Notes: generated by a model not told the origin, from the letters alone. DNA of 35,636 nucleotides from Anaeromyxobacter terrae (GCF_022690685.1 NZ_JALCYY010000051.1:1-35636), one strand, 5' to 3'. Positions 20,722 to 30,605 are shown, numbered from the stretch's first letter. A program made the numbers and translations.

Positions 20722-22380
20722 TCAGTTCGCAGGCGCCCGCTCCCCCTGGCGCGTCGCCACGATGGCGCGGTCGATGGCGTCGCCCGTGCAGAACCAGGAG
20801 AAGAGCCCCCCGGCGCGGCGCGCCGACTCGAGCGCCGGCAGGGCCGCGGGATCGCGCAGCTCGCCGAGGAGCTCCGCCGCCGCCCGGCGCGAGCCGCAGC
20901 TCTCTGCGCCGGCGAGGAGCCTCCGGGCGTTCTCGCGGAGCGCCGGGTCCTCGCGGAGCGCGGGCCGGGCGGCGAGCGCGACGCGGTAGCGCCGCAGGCA
21001 CTCGCCGCTCGCGCCGCGGGCGCAGGCGACGTCGCCGCGGAGCTTCTCCACGAGCGGGTCGCCGGGCCGGACCCTCGCGGCCTGGTCGAGCTTCGCGCGC
21101 GCATCCGCCAGCCGGCCGCTCGCGACGAGCGAGGCGACGTCGCCCGCGAGCGACGCCTCGCTCCGCGGCAGGTACAGCGCGGCGAGCGCGAGGGCGGCCA
21201 GCGCGACGAGGGCGGCGCGGCGGGGCGAGGCGAGGAGGGCGCGGGCCAGGGAGGACGCGCGGGTGAGCGCGAGGAGGATGGCGGGAGGCGAAGGGGGAGG
21301 GGTCGCGGTCGCGGTCGGGGTCGCGGTCGGGGTCGGGGTCGGGGTCGCGGTCGCGGTCGGGGTCGCGGTCGGGGTCGGGGTCGCGGTCGGGGAGGCGGTC
21401 GGGGTCGCGGTCGGGGTCGAGGTCGAGATCGAGGTCGCGGTCGGGGTCGGGGTCGTCGCGGTCGGCGTCGGGGTCGGGATCGGGGTCGAGGTCGGGGTCG
21501 GGGTCGGGGTCGGGGTCGAGCCCTGGGCCGGGATCGCGTTCGAAATCGGGACCGCGTGCGCGCTCGCCGTCACCTCCCCGAGCCGCTGGGTGGCCTGCGC
21601 GACCCGGACCTCCTCGGCGATCTCCGCCGCGGACGCCCGCCTCCATGCGCTGCGGGCGAGCCCGCGGGTCACGGCCGCCGTGAGCCCCGCGGGGAGATCC
21701 GGACGAAGCACGCCGAGCGGGACGGGATCCTCGTGGAGCACGCGGCGGATGGTCTCGAGCGGCGCGTCCGCGGGGAAGGGAGGGCGCCGGGCGAGGAGCG
21801 CGTAGGTCATCGCGGCGAGCGCGAACGTGTCGCCGCGGCGGGACGGCGGGCCGCCGCGAAGGAGCTCGGGGGCGGCGAAGCCGAGCGCGGTCGCGGCGGC
21901 GGGGTCCTCGACGTCGGGATGGAACGGCAGCTCGCCGTCGATGAGCATCACCGACCCGTCCGCCGCGACCACCACGTTGCCGGGGTGGAGCCGTCCGTGG
22001 ACGCGGCCGCGAACGTGCAGCGCGAGGACGGCGCGCGCGAGCGTCCCGGCGAGGTCGAGCGCGGTGGCGCCCACCGGCGGCGCGGCGAGGACCTCCGCGA
22101 GCGTCCGCCCGGGCGCGAAGGGCCGGAGGAGGTGCGCGGCGCCCTCGTGCTCCAGCACCGCCGCCGCGGCGCCGGCGCACGCGCGCGCCCGGCGCTCGAG
22201 CTCTCCTCTCCCGACGCCCGCGCGGCGGAGCACGGCGAGCGTGCCGGCCGACTCCGTCCGCACGAGCAGCGTGCGCCCGGGGCGCAGCACCGAGACGAGG
22301 GCGTGGCCGGGAATGACGAGGCCGGGCGTTCGTACCGCCCCGCCGCTGCTCGCCGTGCTCGCCTCGCGCGTGGGAGTCAT
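20722..22380 (-). CDS. Membrane pseudokinase with Thr-Pro-rich linker and TPR-like tail
   Basis: A 552-residue protein. Residues about 20-270 follow the bacterial Ser/Thr kinase fold (VHGRLHPGN catalytic-loop position, an APE-like [28 protein letters not shown]), but the essential residues are missing. The beta-3 lysine position reads LAVLRR, the HRD aspartate is Arg (HGRLHP), and DFG reads DGE. I infer no phosphotransfer, hence a scaffold or regulator. A Thr-Pro/Thr-Ala/Thr-Ser linker of about 75 residues (287-361) follows, then a transmembrane helix near 385-402 and a C-terminal TPR-like domain that would be periplasmic. It starts 10 bp after the TPR-barrel gene, as third gene of the glucan operon. 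Confidence 0.85.
21301..21520. repeat. Degenerate hexanucleotide tandem repeat inside the pseudokinase gene
   Basis: About 36 copies of the hexamer GGTCGS (mostly GGTCGG and GGTCGC on the plus strand) run almost without interruption, with a few substituted units near 21391, 21420-21432 and 21454-21480. On the coding strand they read as alternating ACC with CCG or GCG codons, giving the Thr-Pro/Thr-Ala linker. Because the unit is two codons, gain or loss of units changes linker length without breaking the frame. It is not a CRISPR array. Confidence 0.9.
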
Positions 22381-22390
22381 CGCCGGCCGC

Positions 22391-24469
22391 TCACGGGAAG
22401 AGCAGCGCCGCGGTGAGCGCTGCCTCGAGCCGGGTGTACACGTCCGCCACCCGCTCAGCGCGCGCCTCGCCGCCGAGCCGGAGCCGCTCGCCCACCCGCT
22501 GCGTGAACGCGAGCCGCGCGTCGCCCCCGGCGCGGACGCCGCCGCCCGCGCCGCCCACGACCTGCAGCGCCGGCCCGGCGTCGAGCGAGAGCCAGCCGCG
22601 CGCGCCCGCGTCGCGGGTCACGACGAGGCGAGGAGAAGCCGAGAGGAAGAGCCGCGGTGAGAACACGCCCGGCGACGGATCGAGCGGGTCGCCCGTCGCG
22701 GAGAGATCGCGGGCGTGGTGGAGCGCGTCCGCCGAGAGGCCGGCCGCGATCGTGAAGCCGCGGGCCCGTGTGAGCGCTCGATCGACGCGCGCGCCCAGCG
22801 CCGACGCGAAGACGGGCGAGATCCCCTCGGCGGAGATGGACCCGGCGCGTGCGGTCAGCTCGATCCGAGTGCCGGCGCCGCGCGCGAGGCGCAGCTCCAC
22901 GAGGTTGTCGCTCGCCGCGCCCGCGCGAGCGTCCCCGACGCGCTCGCCCGCGTAGGCGCGGAAGGAGTCGAGGCGCGCCGCGCGGCGCACGCCGAGGGCG
23001 CCGCGGCCGGCCTCCGTGGCGCGCGGGAGGGCGATCGCGCCCGACAGGGCGGCGCCCCCCCGGCGGACGCCGTCGAGCGCGCCCTGGAGCTCGAGGCGCG
23101 TTCCAGGCGCCGGCCGCCACTCGCCCTGGACCGTGACGTTCGCCCCCGACGCCTCGGCGCCGGCCTCGCCGCGCGCGACGGCGAACCCCGCCTCGACCGC
23201 GCTCGAGGTGAACGGCGTCGGCTCGGCGGCGCCGGACACGAAGGCGCCCACGCGCGAGAGCGCCGCGCCGCCCGGCTGGGCCAGCACCCGCGCGCCGGCT
23301 CCCGCGGACGGCTCGCGCCCGACCCGGAGCGAGCGCTCCAGCGCCGCGACGTCCGGGCGCGCCCGGCCATACCGCTCGGCGAGCTCCCCGTGCGCGAGGG
23401 CGCGATCGGCGTCGCCGTTCCAGGCGTAGGCGTGCGCGAGGCCGCGGTGCGCCTCCGCGTCATCGGGCGCCTCGGCGAGCACGGTCTCGTAGACCGCGAT
23501 GGCGGCCTTGCTCGTCTCCCTGCGCGCGCCGAGCACGCGCGCGAGCCCGACCCGGGCACGCCGCGAGCGCGGGCGCTCGCGCAGCACCGCCTCGTACTCC
23601 CGGCGGGCGGCGTCCGCCGAGGCGGGATCGGCGGCGAGCACGTCGGCGTACTCGAGCCTCGCCTCGGCGGAGGAGCGGAGCGCGAGCGCGCGCGCGTACT
23701 CGCCGCGGGCCTCGTCGCGCCGACCCGCGCGGGCGAGCGCGCGGGCGCGGCCGAGCCGCAGGTCGGGATCGCCGGGGTTTCGCTCGACGAGCGCGGCGTA
23801 GCGCTCCGCCGCCTCTCCCGCCCGGCGCGGATCCTCGGCGGTGATGCGGGCGAGCTCGCGCGAGGCGCGCTCGTCCCCCGGGCTCGCGGCGAGGCGCCGC
23901 TCGAGCTCGCGGACCGCCTCGTCGCGGTGCCGCCGGTCCCAGAGGAGGAGCTTCAGCCACTCGTCGCGGAGCGCCGCGTCGTCCGGCGTGGCCGCGAGGA
24001 GGGTGCCGTACTCGGCGAGCGCGTCGTCGAGCGTGGCGCGGTCACGGCCGAGGAGCCGCGCGAGCTCGCGGCGGCGGGCGGGATCGTCCCGCCACGCGAG
24101 GCCCATGCGCAGGTACCTCACCGCGTCCTTCGACCGGTACGCGTAGCGGGACCACTGGAGCAGCCGCGCCTGCTCGAACGCGAGCTGCCAGTCGTCGGGG
24201 AAGCGCCCGAGGTGGCGGTCGAGCTCGGCGACCGCGCGGTCCGTCTCGCCGTTCCGGAGCAGCGCCCAGCAGAGGTTGCGCGAGGCCTCGCGGCCGTTCG
24301 GGTTCAGCTCGAGCGCCTTCCGCCACGCCTCGATCGCGGCGCCGTAGTTCTCGATCTGCATGTTCGCGCGGCCGCGCGACAGGTACCAGGACTCGGCGAG
24401 GCCGGCGCGGGCCGCCGGCGCGAGCGCGAGCGCGACCGCGACGACGGCGGCGCGGAGGGAGCGGGACAT
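22391..24469 (-). CDS. TPR protein with C-terminal outer-membrane beta-barrel (BcsC/PgaA-like)
   Basis: A 692-residue exported protein. A signal peptide (MSRSLRAAVVAVALALAPAARA) precedes about ten TPR-like helical repeats (roughly 28-385), beginning with NYGAAIEAWRKALELNPNGREASRNLCWALL. The C-terminal 300 residues alternate polar and hydrophobic positions, are rich in Gly, Arg and Ala, and end in VYTRLEAALTAALLFP, as expected for a beta-barrel. Periplasmic TPRs plus an outer-membrane pore is the design of BcsC and PgaA, which export polysaccharide. It lies 32 bp downstream of the GH8-glucan synthase fusion and 10 bp upstream of the pseudokinase. The barrel is shorter and less certain than the TPR part. 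Confidence 0.85.
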   Translation of the reverse strand: MSRSLRAAVVAVALALAPAARAGLAESWYLSRGRANMQIENYGAAIEAWRKALELNPNGREASRNLCWALLRNGETDRAVAELDRHLGRFPDDWQLAFEQARLLQWSRYAYRSKDAVRYLRMGLAWRDDPARRRELARLLGRDRATLDDALAEYGTLLAATPDDAALRDEWLKLLLWDRRHRDEAVRELERRLAASPGDERASRELARITAEDPRRAGEAAERYAALVERNPGDPDLRLGRARALARAGRRDEARGEYARALALRSSAEARLEYADVLAADPASADAARREYEAVLRERPRSRRARVGLARVLGARRETSKAAIAVYETVLAEAPDDAEAHRGLAHAYAWNGDADRALAHGELAERYGRARPDVAALERSLRVGREPSAGAGARVLAQPGGAALSRVGAFVSGAAEPTPFTSSAVEAGFAVARGEAGAEASGANVTVQGEWRPAPGTRLELQGALDGVRRGGAALSGAIALPRATEAGRGALGVRRAARLDSFRAYAGERVGDARAGAASDNLVELRLARGAGTRIELTARAGSISAEGISPVFASALGARVDRALTRARGFTIAAGLSADALHHARDLSATGDPLDPSPGVFSPRLFLSASPRLVVTRDAGARGWLSLDAGPALQVVGGAGGGVRAGGDARLAFTQRVGERLRLGGEARAERVADVYTRLEAALTAALLFP

Positions 24470-24501: not shown

Positions 24502-27500
24502 CTAGGCGGCAAGGTACTCACGCGCCTCGCCGCCCGGGAGCGGCGCAGGCAGGTAGGCGAGCCCTGCGCGCCACACGCCCGGGAGCACCCGGCGCGCGTG
24601 CGCGACGCGCGCCCAGCGCACGCCCTCGCGCAGCACGATGGGGAGCGCGTCGGAGGGCGGCCGCCCGAGGAAGAGCGCGCCGAGCCCACCCGGCGAGGTG
24701 TCGAGCACGACGCCGCGGACCCGCCGGGAGGCGCCCACCCACGCGAGCCCGCGCAGCGCCCCGTGGCGGGGCGTGAGGCGACGGCGCGCGCGGAGCGGAA
24801 GGAACGCGCGGGCGATCCCGGCGAGGAGCTGGAGCGCCATCGCGACCTGGCTGCGGGTCCGCCCGTCGTGGGCACCCGCGAACGCCTCCTCGGAGGAGAA
24901 GGCGATCCGCGCGAGCGCGCGCCGCGCCTCCGCGGGGAGCCCCTCGAAGGCGAGGCCGGCCCGGACCGCGCCCTGCACCTCCTCGCGCCACGCGACGCGG
25001 GCGCGCACGCGCAGGGGCTCTCGCGTCCCGAAGGAGAGCTCGACGGCGGCGGGGAGCGCGGCGCCCGCGGGCAGGCGGAGCCCCGCCCCGGTGGTGGAGA
25101 GATCCACCGTCTCGGCGGAGAGCGCGAGCTCGGGCGCCTCGACGCGCACGGGTACGCGCCGCCGCACGCGCTCGTCCTCGCGGCGCTGCGGCCGCTCCCA
25201 CGCGACGAGGAGCGCAGCGAGCACGGCGGCGAGGTTCGCGCCCGCCCAGAACAGGTTGAACGCGTACGCCTCGACCTCGATCCCGAACGCCACGAGCTCG
25301 AACGCGCCCTTCCCGAGCGCGACCGCGGCGAGCGCCGCGGCGGCGATCGTGAGCCGCGACGACGACGCGTCGAACCGCCGCCGGTTCGAGACGATCCCCT
25401 TCGGCGTCACCTTGAACCCGAGGCTCTTCGGGAGGAGGAGGTCGAGCGTCGCGCGCGCGAGCGGGAAGGCGACCGCGGCCTCGTAGACGGTGCCCCACAG
25501 GAGCCGCGGCCAGCCGGGGAGGAGCGCGTTCGCGGCGAGCGTGGAGAGCAAGAGGTGCGGGACGAGGTACGCGAGGAGGACGGGGAGGTCCGCGAAGAGG
25601 GGGTGGAGGTGGAAGAGCAGGTACCAGAGCGGCGTCAGGAAGAACGCCACCCGCGCGAGCGGGAAGAAGAAGTACCAGAGCGAGGCGAAGTAGCCGACGC
25701 GGTGCCGGAGCGGGAGGCCGCGCTCGAGCAGCGGGTTGTCCTTGAAGAAGATCTGCAGGCACCCGAGCATCCAGCGACGCCGCTGCACGAGGTAGCTCTG
25801 CACGTTCTCGGCGGAGAGCCCGACGGCGAGGTCCTCGTCGACGAACGCCGAGCGCCAGCCCTTCGCGTGGAGCTTCTGGCTCGTGTGGATGTCCTCGGTG
25901 ATCGAGAGCAGGTTGAAGCCGCCCACCGAGGCGATGGCGGCGCGCCGGAACACCGCGCCCGAGCCGACGAAGAACGCGCCGCCCCAGCGATCGCGGCCCG
26001 CCTGGATGGCGTGGTTGAAGAGGTCGGCCTCGTTCGGGACGGCGGGGCCGGTCCCGAAGGCGCGCTGGAAGACGTCCGGGTTGTAGAAGTGATGCGGCGT
26101 CTGGACGACGCCCATGCCCGCGTCGCGGAAGTGCGGGACCGTGCGCTCCAGGAACGCCGCGCTCGGCACGTGGTCGGTGTCGAACACCACGACGAGGTCG
26201 CCCGCGGTGAGCGAGAGGGCGTTGTTGAGGTTGCCGGCCTTGGCGTGCCGCTTCGGGCCGGCGATGTAGCGCGCGCCGTGCTCGGCGGCCAGCCGCGCGA
26301 CCGCCTCGCGGTGCGAGTCGTCGCAGACGTGGACCGTCTTCCTCGGGTAGCGCATCGCTGCGCAGGCGGCGAGCGTCTTGTCGAGGATCTCGAGGGACTC
26401 GGAGTAGATGGGGACGAACACGTCGACCGAGGGGACCTCCTCGCCCGGCGCGAGCGGCGCGGGTGGCTCGCGCCGGCGCCGCGAGACGCCCACCTGCACG
26501 ACGAGGAAGAGGACGGTCGAGAACGCGTACGCCTCGGCGGCGAGCAGGGACAGGCTGATGACCGGCCCGAGCGGCTCGATGAAGTTCAGCGTCTCCCGGG
26601 CGCGCCAGCCGAGGTAGCGCGCGGAGATCGCGACCGCGAGCGCGACGAGGCCCGCGCGCGCCCAGGTGAAGCGCCGCGCGAGCGGCGCGAGCGCGAGGGC
26701 GGCGAGCACCGGGAGGAGCGGGAAGCGCTCCTCGAACGGGCTCCAGTCGATCCCGAGCAGGAACGCGAGCGGCTCGTCGAACCGGCGCGCGACGCCGAGC
26801 TCGAGCGCGCGGCCGAGCCAGAGCCAGTTGTGCAGGTAGTAGGGGGTCTCCTCGCCCGCGAGCGCGCGCTCGAAGAGCGCGTCGAGCTTCCCGTGACGCA
26901 GCTCGGAGGCGAGCGCCGGGTCCTCCACCGCAGCGAGCGCCGCGACCGACGCCATGTGCGGCTGGCCGTCGAGCTCCGACAGGGCGCGGCCCCCCGTGGT
27001 GTAGCGATCGCGGAGCCGCCCCTCGGCGCGGATGGCCTCGCGCGGGAACGCGAGCATGCGGGCGCGCAGGTCCGCCTCGCCGCGCCGCCCGAACCAGCGC
27101 GCGTCGAGCGCGACGCGCCAGAAGATCGGCACGGCGTCGTAGCCGAAGACCTGGGGCGCGCCGCCGCCGGGCTTCTCGAGGAGCAGCGCACCCGACCGCG
27201 GATCCACCCAGATCCGCTCCGGCGGCAGCACGAGGCCCTTGTCGAAGTAGAGGAAGCGGAGGACCTCGTAGCTCCCGCGCACGAGCTCCTTCCACGGGTG
27301 GGCCGGGTCGACCTCGGCGAAGACCTCGTAGGCGTACGGGGCGAGGTAGGCGACGTGGATGGTCGGGTAGCGCTCTCGCGGCGCCCAGTTCCCGCCGGTG
27401 GGCAGGAACCGGCCGCCCGCCTGGATCACCTCGCGTTCCCAGACGTCGGCGAGGAGGCGCCGCGCCTCCTCGAGGTAGCGCGCCTCGCCGAAGCGGCGCG

Positions 27501-27894
27501 AGGCGAGCACGAGCGCGAGGGCGCTGTCCTGATCCGCGTCGGTCGCGGCGTTCCGGTCCTCGACGCCGTCCTTCCACTTCCAGGCGAGGAGCCGATCGTC
27601 GCGGACCTGGAGGTTCTCGCGCGTCCAGCGCCAAACCTCCTCGAAGGTGGCGCGGTCGCCGGCCCAGACCGCGCGGAGGAGCGCGTACGACTGCCCCTCG
27701 GACGTCGTGATGCCGCCCTCGTCACGCGCCACGACGCGGCCGTGGTCCACGTGCGCGTAGCGGTAGAAGCTCCAGAGGGCGGAGAGCTCGTCGCGCTCGC
27801 GGGCCCGCGCGTCGTTCGCGCGCCCCGCGTCGCCGTGGCCACAGGCCAGGAGGGCCGAGACGGGGAGGAGGGCGATCCAGGCGAGGGCTCGCAT
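24502..27894 (-). CDS. Fused GH8 endoglucanase - BcsA-like GT2 glucan synthase - tandem PilZ
   Basis: A single 1130-residue membrane protein. Residues 1-18 are a signal/lipobox-like segment (SALLAC). About 35-375 form a GH8 domain like BcsZ, with SEGQSY (acid Glu66), ATDADQD (Asp119/121) and GYDAV (Asp253), so hydrolysis of beta-1,4-glucan is plausible. Membrane helices (about 392-470) lead to a BcsA-type GT2 domain with CDDS, FDTDH (Asp572/574), ITED (666-668) and QRRRW (704-708). More helices follow (about 736-900). PilZ 1 has R913-xxx-R917 and D931-x-S-xx-G936; PilZ 2 has R1039-xxx-R1043 and D1065-x-S-xx-G1070, both complete c-di-GMP motifs. GH8 would be periplasmic, the rest cytosolic. 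The polymer is probably cellulose-like or mixed-linkage glucan. No BcsB is encoded nearby. Confidence 0.93.
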   Translation of the reverse strand: MRALAWIALLPVSALLACGHGDAGRANDARARERDELSALWSFYRYAHVDHGRVVARDEGGITTSEGQSYALLRAVWAGDRATFEEVWRWTRENLQVRDDRLLAWKWKDGVEDRNAATDADQDSALALVLASRRFGEARYLEEARRLLADVWEREVIQAGGRFLPTGGNWAPRERYPTIHVAYLAPYAYEVFAEVDPAHPWKELVRGSYEVLRFLYFDKGLVLPPERIWVDPRSGALLLEKPGGGAPQVFGYDAVPIFWRVALDARWFGRRGEADLRARMLAFPREAIRAEGRLRDRYTTGGRALSELDGQPHMASVAALAAVEDPALASELRHGKLDALFERALAGEETPYYLHNWLWLGRALELGVARRFDEPLAFLLGIDWSPFEERFPLLPVLAALALAPLARRFTWARAGLVALAVAISARYLGWRARETLNFIEPLGPVISLSLLAAEAYAFSTVLFLVVQVGVSRRRREPPAPLAPGEEVPSVDVFVPIYSESLEILDKTLAACAAMRYPRKTVHVCDDSHREAVARLAAEHGARYIAGPKRHAKAGNLNNALSLTAGDLVVVFDTDHVPSAAFLERTVPHFRDAGMGVVQTPHHFYNPDVFQRAFGTGPAVPNEADLFNHAIQAGRDRWGGAFFVGSGAVFRRAAIASVGGFNLLSITEDIHTSQKLHAKGWRSAFVDEDLAVGLSAENVQSYLVQRRRWMLGCLQIFFKDNPLLERGLPLRHRVGYFASLWYFFFPLARVAFFLTPLWYLLFHLHPLFADLPVLLAYLVPHLLLSTLAANALLPGWPRLLWGTVYEAAVAFPLARATLDLLLPKSLGFKVTPKGIVSNRRRFDASSSRLTIAAAALAAVALGKGAFELVAFGIEVEAYAFNLFWAGANLAAVLAALLVAWERPQRREDERVRRRVPVRVEAPELALSAETVDLSTTGAGLRLPAGAALPAAVELSFGTREPLRVRARVAWREEVQGAVRAGLAFEGLPAEARRALARIAFSSEEAFAGAHDGRTRSQVAMALQLLAGIARAFLPLRARRRLTPRHGALRGLAWVGASRRVRGVVLDTSPGGLGALFLGRPPSDALPIVLREGVRWARVAHARRVLPGVWRAGLAYLPAPLPGGEAREYLAA

Positions 27895-28053: not shown

Positions 28054-28899
28054 TCAGCGCCGCCGGACCGCCGCCACCACGTTGGGCACCGGCCAGGGCT
28101 CCCTGTTCTCGGCCTGCGGCAGGTGCTCGAACCCGCCCACCCACTCGTGCTCGCTCCCGCCGCCGCGCACGTAGAGCTGGGCCTCTGGGCCGCCCTCGAC
28201 GTACATCGCCTGGCGCAGATCGATGGGGAGCGCGAGGAGCGCGTTCACGAGGTCGTAGACCGGCCACGGCGTCCGCGCGTGGATGAAGAGGACGCGCCCC
28301 TTCCCGTCCACGCCGATCGCCGCCGCCGAGAACCGGCGCTGCGAGGGCTCCCACACGTTCTTCCGCTCGCACGAGACGAGCCGGATCGACTGCACGAGCG
28401 TGCCGTACGCCCTCGCCACGGTCTCGAGATCGTCGCAGTCGCGGTCGATCATCCGGACCGGCGCGGCGCCGCGGGCGAGCGGGTCGAACGCGAGCACCGA
28501 GCGGTCCTTGGACACGCGCCGCTGGTTCACGTGGTCGCGCGTGCGCATGAGCGACACGCTCGTGCGGTAGTCCTGCTGGTACATGCTCGCGTTGATCGCG
28601 GCGACCGCCCCGGCGCGCGCGGCCCACGCGCGCGCGCTGCGCAGGGCGCCCTCGCCGGGTGCGGAGGCGTTGAGCAGCTTGAGCTCGAAGCGGGCCGGGT
28701 CGATGCGGACGATCGCGATGGGGCGGGCGCCGGCCTCGGCGGCCGGGCCGTCGAACTGGCCGAGCTCGAGGCCGGGCTCGAGCGCCCGGAAGCCGCCATG
28801 GGCCGCGTCGCTGGCGCGGGGAGCGGGCGCCGGCGCCGCCGCGTGCGCGGGCGGCGCCGAGAGCGCGAGGAGCAGGGCAGCCGCCGCCGGGAGGCGCAT
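28054..28899 (-). CDS. Exported phosphodiester glycosidase (NAGPA-domain) family protein
   Basis: A 281-residue protein with a signal peptide (MRLPAAAALLLALSAPPAHA) and one NAGPA/phosphodiester-glycosidase domain. Family-typical features are a FELKLLNAS segment, the AAINASMYQQDYRTS substrate loop, a central RVLFIHARTPW strand and DLRQAMYVEGGPEAQLYV near the end. The domain removes GlcNAc from phosphodiesters in the mammalian uncovering enzyme; bacterial substrates are mostly unknown. It is periplasmic or secreted. It is on the same strand as, and 159 bp upstream of, the glucan synthase operon, and its start is 62 bp from the divergent phosphoglucomutase start, so a polysaccharide-related role is plausible but inferred. 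Confidence 0.85.
   Translation of the reverse strand: MRLPAAAALLLALSAPPAHAAAPAPAPRASDAAHGGFRALEPGLELGQFDGPAAEAGARPIAIVRIDPARFELKLLNASAPGEGALRSARAWAARAGAVAAINASMYQQDYRTSVSLMRTRDHVNQRRVSKDRSVLAFDPLARGAAPVRMIDRDCDDLETVARAYGTLVQSIRLVSCERKNVWEPSQRRFSAAAIGVDGKGRVLFIHARTPWPVYDLVNALLALPIDLRQAMYVEGGPEAQLYVRGGGSEHEWVGGFEHLPQAENREPWPVPNVVAAVRRR

Positions 28900-28961: not shown

Positions 28962-30605
<1,644 letters not shown>

Follow-up and report, generated by a model that had tools for sequence, protein, structure and literature searches.

Why bacteria that make cellulose need a cellulase, and where that enzyme acts, is an open question. A gene of Anaeromyxobacter terrae (GCF_022690685.1) encodes a glucan hydrolase and a glucan synthase in one polypeptide. 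The gene lies in NZ_JALCYY010000051.1:1-35636, the whole 35,636-nucleotide stretch of DNA that was analysed (hereafter, the window), where a single frame of 1130 codons on the minus strand (24502-27894) runs from ATG to stop without any internal stop. As an earlier note made from the sequence alone had stated, this frame joins a GH8 endoglucanase domain, membrane helices, a GT2 domain and a PilZ domain, with all the motifs that it named. From sequence comparison and structural modelling, we consider it probable (about 0.65) that the product is a PilZ-regulated, BcsB-independent beta-glucan synthase whose endoglucanase is held at the exit of the channel.

The identity of the domains is supported by profiles, catalytic residues and fold. 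Pfam places GH8 at residues 41-331 (E 2.4e-32), GT2 models at 488-777 (E to 5.7e-25) and PilZ at 903-999 (E 1.9e-15, 57 bits). The GH8 part contains SEGQSY (E66), ATDADQD (D119, D121) and GYDAV (D253), so that the fold is accompanied by the general acid Glu and the base Asp, and E66 and D253 align with their counterparts in separate BcsZ-type GH8 proteins. The synthase part has the D, DxD, TED, QxxRW and FxVTxK motifs and the fold of BcsA-type membrane GT2s, with FDTDH at 572-575, TED at 666-668 and QRRRW at 704-708. Residues E66, D119, D121, D253, D572, D574, E667, D668, Q704, R707 and W708 are all invariant in 10 aligned fused homologues. The PilZ domain of the window protein aligns with that of BcsA and carries RxxxR and D/NxSxxG. 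Among solved structures, the best relatives of the synthase part are the BcsA proteins of E. coli (E 1.4e-95) and Cereibacter sphaeroides (E 1.7e-86), and those of the N-terminal part are GH8 endoglucanases of acetic acid bacteria (E to 2.5e-24). Both NCBIfam equivalog models score below their cut-offs, namely CelA/BcsA TIGR03030 over residues 396-1023 (515.6 bits against 699.1) and BcsZ over residues 40-213 (99.3 bits against 299). In an AlphaFold2 model built from 50 sequences (mean pLDDT, the predicted local confidence, 89.5; pTM, the predicted overall fold score, 0.77), residues 26-378 match the folds of CelA, BcsZ and CMCax (Z 34-40) and residues 384-1034 match BcsA (Z 31-47), in agreement with Foldseek. 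The same model shows, after PilZ, a six-stranded barrel with the strand order of PilZ; this second domain has no Pfam match, and in Nitrospira homologues the profiles of the two PilZ-type domains cross-match only weakly.

The fusion is not peculiar to one assembly. It was found in 27 distinct genomes, 12 of Myxococcota and 15 of Nitrospirota. Nine other genomes of the window's family carry it with 65-95 % identity (two copies are cut by contig ends and four lie on single contigs), and the 195 genomes of the phylum yielded two further cases, G110 (59 %) and Myxococcota bacterium bin.157 (G189; 56 %). Relatives that share the join thus have identities of 95, 90, 73, 65, 59 and 56 %, and several of these genomes consist of a single contig. 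A scan of one genome per species (84,980 species) added the Nitrospira metagenome-assembled genomes (MAGs) L064, L065 and L067; the fusion is also present in Nitrospira UBA5699 and on the complete chromosome of Nitrospira moscoviensis NSP M-1 (NZ_CP011801.1), and near-full-length versions, with open frames of 1133-1441 codons, occur in 12 of 296 sampled Nitrospirota genomes. In the plasmid collection, 516 records match, none of them over 80 % of the length of the fusion. When the window is compared with its two nearest relatives, the ratio of nonsynonymous to synonymous substitutions is 0.09-0.15 for GH8 and 0.08 for the membrane helices plus GT2, and both the hydrolase and the synthase are under purifying selection. 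Although DNA of high G+C content (near 75 % here) tends to keep spurious frames open, the possibility that a stop was lost, or that two proteins are translated separately, is negligible, and we regard it as ruled out by the conservation of the join at the protein level across two phyla, its presence in single-contig genomes and the absence of a conserved start codon between GH8 and GT2 among the fused homologues. Neither of the findings that the earlier note named as fatal, an error in the frame or homologues that are separate proteins with an intervening start, was made.

An acidobacterial locus (L073:4374-11551, Acidobacteria gp11 AA57) that was taken for a fusion by its span was rejected because it consists of two genes, GT2 followed by GH8. 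These genes overlap by one base, and with a convergent BcsB gene they make up an unusual bcs arrangement.

The model and the sequence suggest where the two enzymes lie relative to the inner membrane. The N-terminus, MRALAWIALLPVSALLAC-G, conforms to a lipobox, and the cysteine is kept in nine of 10 aligned fused proteins, two of which have the form LAGC; the proteins of bin.157 and Nitrospira have signal sequences without a lipobox. In the model, three helices precede GT2 (385-406, 410-434 and 443-468) and, as we read it, four follow (729-761, 770-791, 847-870 and 874-898). An exported N-terminus and three intervening helices would therefore make GH8 periplasmic and GT2 cytosolic, which is the topology that the earlier note had predicted, and the single chain supports its further claim of a forced 1:1 ratio of synthase to endoglucanase. 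The segment between GH8 and the membrane is short (about 18 residues) and partly invariant, suggesting a set geometry and not a loose tether; because of these properties, emergence of the new chain beside its own cutter appears plausible. The structural alignment to C. sphaeroides BcsA starts at BcsA residue 36-37, which we take to be the start of TM2, the second transmembrane helix. In the fusion, GH8 occupies the place of TM1.

This replacement coincides with the absence of the partner subunit BcsB. The window's genome has no BcsB, and its only GH8 is the fused copy. BcsB was detected in 10 of the 195 genomes of Myxococcota, none of which is among the 12 with the fusion, and all Myxococcota relatives with separate BcsA-type synthases (G011, G045-G048 and G050-G053) have it, the whole loci reading bcsA-bcsB-bcsZ. 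In none of the 15 Nitrospirota genomes with the fusion did BcsB exceed the Pfam cut-off, a single match reaching 19.1 bits against 21. The comparison of TM1 covered 106 synthase sequences from the loci, kin that do not count as independent trials, with BcsB sought only in the stretch retrieved around each of them. Of the 68 whose locus has BcsB, 66 show a hydrophobic peak like TM1 directly ahead of TM2; none of the 16 fused rows does (one genome being represented twice), and 6 of the 22 further rows, with no BcsB in that stretch, do. BcsA TM1 and BcsB go missing together. The N-terminal helix that RiGT2 of Romboutsia lacks has been described as the BcsB-coiling helix (PMC10374906). The earlier note is supported on architecture, topology and ratio; it did not notice that BcsB is absent, that the first BcsA helix is lost, that PilZ is followed by a second PilZ-like domain or that the partner gene is BcsC-like. 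A second BcsA-like GT2 is encoded elsewhere in the genome of the window, in a 789-codon frame (G000:C62:28181-29899; L003, L004) with about 33 % identity.

The partner gene lies next to the fusion. Its product in the window exceeds the Pfam threshold for TPR alone, and where flanks are available, in Myxococcota as well as in Nitrospirota, the gene after the fusion is a homologue. A Nitrospira homologue matches TPR families and, weakly and below the cut-off, the C-terminus of BcsC (BCSC_C), and the model of the bin.157 homologue consists of a TPR solenoid and 16 strands, with E. coli BcsC as the best fold match (9b8a, 9b8h; also 6tzk). The predicted unit is thus a two-gene cassette for a synthase, a cutter and a BcsC-like exporter.

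In bin.157, even this boundary is absent: the fusion and the predicted exporter form one frame of 1661 codons (L066:5989-10974, the same locus as L053) that holds GH8, GT2, PilZ, the TPR solenoid and the predicted outer-membrane barrel. At the junction, neither the second PilZ-like domain nor a stop codon is left, and NLAMFWHLTRGIARALLPALLVMGVCSSAHA-EGIRESWY links PilZ directly to the TPR part. The hydrophobic piece found here could serve as an eighth membrane helix and be cleaved by signal peptidase; alternatively, the chain could remain intact. Confidence in the prediction of this helix is low (block pLDDT 43-61). The long form was seen in a single MAG and in none of seven other genomes of the class of bin.157. 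We advance only tentatively the view that a minimal BcsB-free machine to synthesise, trim and export a glucan would consist of two genes and, in bin.157, of one 1661-residue chain reaching from cytosolic GT2 and PilZ through the inner membrane and periplasmic GH8 and TPR solenoid to the outer-membrane barrel, either spanning the two membranes intact or cleaved at a possible internal signal-peptidase site (SSAHA/EG).

In a tree of GT2 domains (73 rows, quick search, with support values solely from the Shimodaira-Hasegawa-like approximate likelihood ratio test), all fused proteins form one clade (100) with a long stem (1.29), which groups (96) with unfused, TM1-less synthases of Nitrospira, Myxococcota and Elusimicrobia. 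The genomes of these nearest unfused synthases lack BcsB where tested, and some of the genes adjoin BcsS-like or BcsG genes. The TM1-less BcsA proteins of Nitrospira and relatives (L103, L071, L068 and L077) share with the fusion the closest GT2 kinship and BcsB-less genomes but differ in having no fused GH8 and, in some cases, a BcsS-like neighbour. The bcsABZ operons found in the closest relatives that lack the fusion are rejected as its source because their synthases group with BcsA of Pseudomonadota. On the simplest reading, TM1 and BcsB would have been lost first, leaving a periplasmic N-terminus to which an exported GH8 was joined once, with subsequent transfer between the two phyla.

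The unfused, TM1-less loci L103, L071, L078, L114, L077, L141 and L068, in some of which a BcsS-like gene comes next, represent another BcsB-free arrangement. In an elusimicrobial locus (L069:4795-8208), an unfused BcsA relative has an N-terminal extension of about 400 residues with two similar repeats (VWLNGKVFGPF / AWLNSGVFGPF) and is followed by a BcsG gene.

These observations translate into a model of how the fusion may work. The N-terminus would be exported and GH8 would fold in the periplasm, most of the myxobacterial proteins probably being lipid-anchored at the conserved cysteine. Three helices would lead to the cytosol, where GT2 would build a beta-1,4-type glucan from UDP-glucose and pass it out through a channel formed by the seven helices, with synthesis gated by cyclic di-GMP (c-di-GMP) through PilZ and perhaps also through the second PilZ-like barrel. 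On its short conserved linker, at the place of the helix that coils with BcsB, GH8 would cut the emerging chain, and the chain would then travel along the TPR solenoid and the barrel encoded by the next gene. Cutting would probably serve to clear stalled or misdirected chains, as is thought for free BcsZ in E. coli, where cellulase activity (E55, D243) is needed for cellulose secretion and BcsZ can be replaced by unrelated cellulases, which argues for clearing of stalled chains and not for a structural role (PMC11379886). A tethered GH8 that has kept its catalytic residues fits such a function. We infer the topology in vivo, the gating by c-di-GMP, the product, the cutting in cis and the route of export from these comparisons.

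Several points weigh against this model. To our knowledge, the bacterial synthases tested to date depend on BcsB, and divergence could conceal another protein of the BcsB type. The PilZ serine is lost in some fused homologues (DLARGG, DLGLGG). Furthermore, the sequence does not fix the product as cellulose or mixed-linkage glucan, and RiGT2, which lacks both TM1 and BcsB, makes mixed-linkage glucan (PMC10374906). It is therefore possible, if rather unlikely, that the same architecture makes mixed-linkage (1,3;1,4)-beta-glucan or another beta-glucan, with GH8 as a lichenase-type enzyme, an alternative that is compatible with trimming. In its favour, 5xd0, a lichenase of GH8, ties with CelA among the best fold matches, the CelA profile scores under its equivalog cut-off, and FFVGS stands in the fusion at the site that is FFCGS in the alignment to BcsA. 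However, the GT2 domain groups with BcsA-type synthases and not with the HlyD-partnered set, the top sequence matches are cellulose synthases and cellulases, and the partner protein resembles BcsC.

The remaining alternatives concern the role of GH8. The domain might act mainly as a scaffold that takes the part of BcsB at the exit of the channel, where it would guide the chain or hold the exporter, with hydrolysis secondary; its location at the place of TM1 in the absence of BcsB and the conserved linker agree with this, but the invariance of the catalytic carboxylates in the aligned homologues and the hydrolytic role of GH8 in E. coli (PMC11379886) make it improbable. Moreover, GH8 is not required to replace BcsB because unfused synthases exist that lack both BcsB and TM1, and the finding that TM1 is likewise missing from neighbouring BcsB-less synthases to which no GH8 is fused weakens the proposal that replacement by GH8 caused the loss of BcsB. 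We likewise doubt that GH8 sets the length of the product, or that short oligosaccharides are the real product, as opposed to the clearing of stalled chains: a tethered cutter near the exit could act on every chain, and neither BcsD nor another fibre-assembly gene was noted in the operon, but a gene for a predicted dedicated exporter of a long polymer is conserved next door.

Compared with the BcsA-BcsB-BcsZ-BcsC systems of E. coli, C. sphaeroides and Komagataeibacter, the locus has the same BcsA-type GT2 with PilZ, GH8 endoglucanase and, as predicted, TPR/barrel exporter but unites BcsZ and BcsA in one chain, lacks TM1 and BcsB, and adds a second PilZ-like barrel. Fusions of neighbouring Bcs subunits in one frame have been published, namely BcsAB (many) and BcsZC in Zymomonas (PMC7112194, PMC9693552); here, by contrast, Z is paired with A and comes first, in a BcsB-free locus, and bin.157 joins Z, A and C. 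BcsB-less synthases with HlyD-type partners are represented by the cyanobacterial XcsABC (PMC12430437) and by Rhodobacterales plasmid loci of the order GH8-HlyD-GT2. Both combine a BcsA-like GT2 with a separate endoglucanase, and the Rhodobacterales synthases, like the fusion, have no clear TM1 peak, but they are unfused, have HlyD-type partners and are distant in the GT2 tree. RiGT2 of Romboutsia ilealis shares the seven membrane helices (TM2-TM8), the lack of TM1 and of a bcsB neighbour, and PilZ, and differs in its Gram-positive host and in having neither a fused GH8 nor an outer-membrane exporter (PMC10374906). Among the results listed for searches of open-access literature, which did not extend to subscription papers or architecture databases, there was neither a BcsZ-BcsA fusion nor any work on the locus in Anaeromyxobacter or Nitrospira.

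Table 1. Positions of the fusion, its parts and the adjoining genes in the window
Feature	Coordinates	Strand	Basis and remarks
GH8-GT2-PilZ-PilZ' fusion	24502..27894	-	1130 aa, single frame; profiles, homologue alignment, model
Signal sequence with lipobox, residues 1-18 (...SALLAC-G; C18)	27841..27894	-	Sequence reading; predicted lipid anchor
GH8 domain, residues 26-378	26761..27819	-	Catalytic E66 and D253, D119/D121; Pfam and fold match
GH8-to-membrane linker, residues 366-384	26743..26799	-	Invariant E374, F378, L379, D383; at BcsA TM1 position
Three N-terminal membrane helices, residues 385-468	26491..26742	-	Equivalent to BcsA TM2-TM4; AlphaFold2 model, BcsA structure alignment
GT2 domain, residues 488-710	25765..26433	-	DTD, TED, QRRRW
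C-terminal membrane helices and FKVTPK gating-loop-like motif, residues 729-898	25201..25710	-	Model and BcsA alignment
PilZ domain, residues 903-999	24898..25188	-	Pfam and alignment to BcsA; RRxxxR and DLSTTG kept in window
Second PilZ-like barrel, residues 1044-1114	24553..24765	-	Model strands; weak profile cross-hits
TPR and predicted outer-membrane barrel, BcsC-like exporter	22391..24469	-	32 bp downstream of fusion; Pfam TPR, homologue models
Kinase-like protein, TP-rich stretch	20722..22380	-	Pfam Pkinase; beside exporter gene in most Myxococcota loci

Among the neighbouring genes (Table 1), the kinase-like one is probably in the same operon as the fusion. Its product has a TP-rich repeat and may be a pseudokinase because HGRLHPGN replaces the expected HRDLKxxN. 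Just upstream of the fusion lies a NAGPA (phosphodiester glycosidase) gene (28054-28899, minus strand) that is kept there in the window's genus and was not found beside more distant fusions. A phosphoglucomutase gene (28962-30605, plus strand) is divergent from the cluster and kept in the majority of the loci of this genus; its product could provide the glucose-1-phosphate from which UDP-glucose is made.

Free BcsZ is a tetramer for which an interaction with BcsC was not detected (PMC11379886); in the fusion, the cutter is fixed one-to-one to the synthase, next to the predicted mouth of the channel. Because both are in one chain, point mutations in a single protein make it possible to test the position of the cutter, its ratio to the synthase and the need for hydrolysis. 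The family also offers a test of BcsB independence, given that TM1 of BcsA and BcsB go missing together. The fused protein would thereby allow cellulose export to be studied in a simpler machine.

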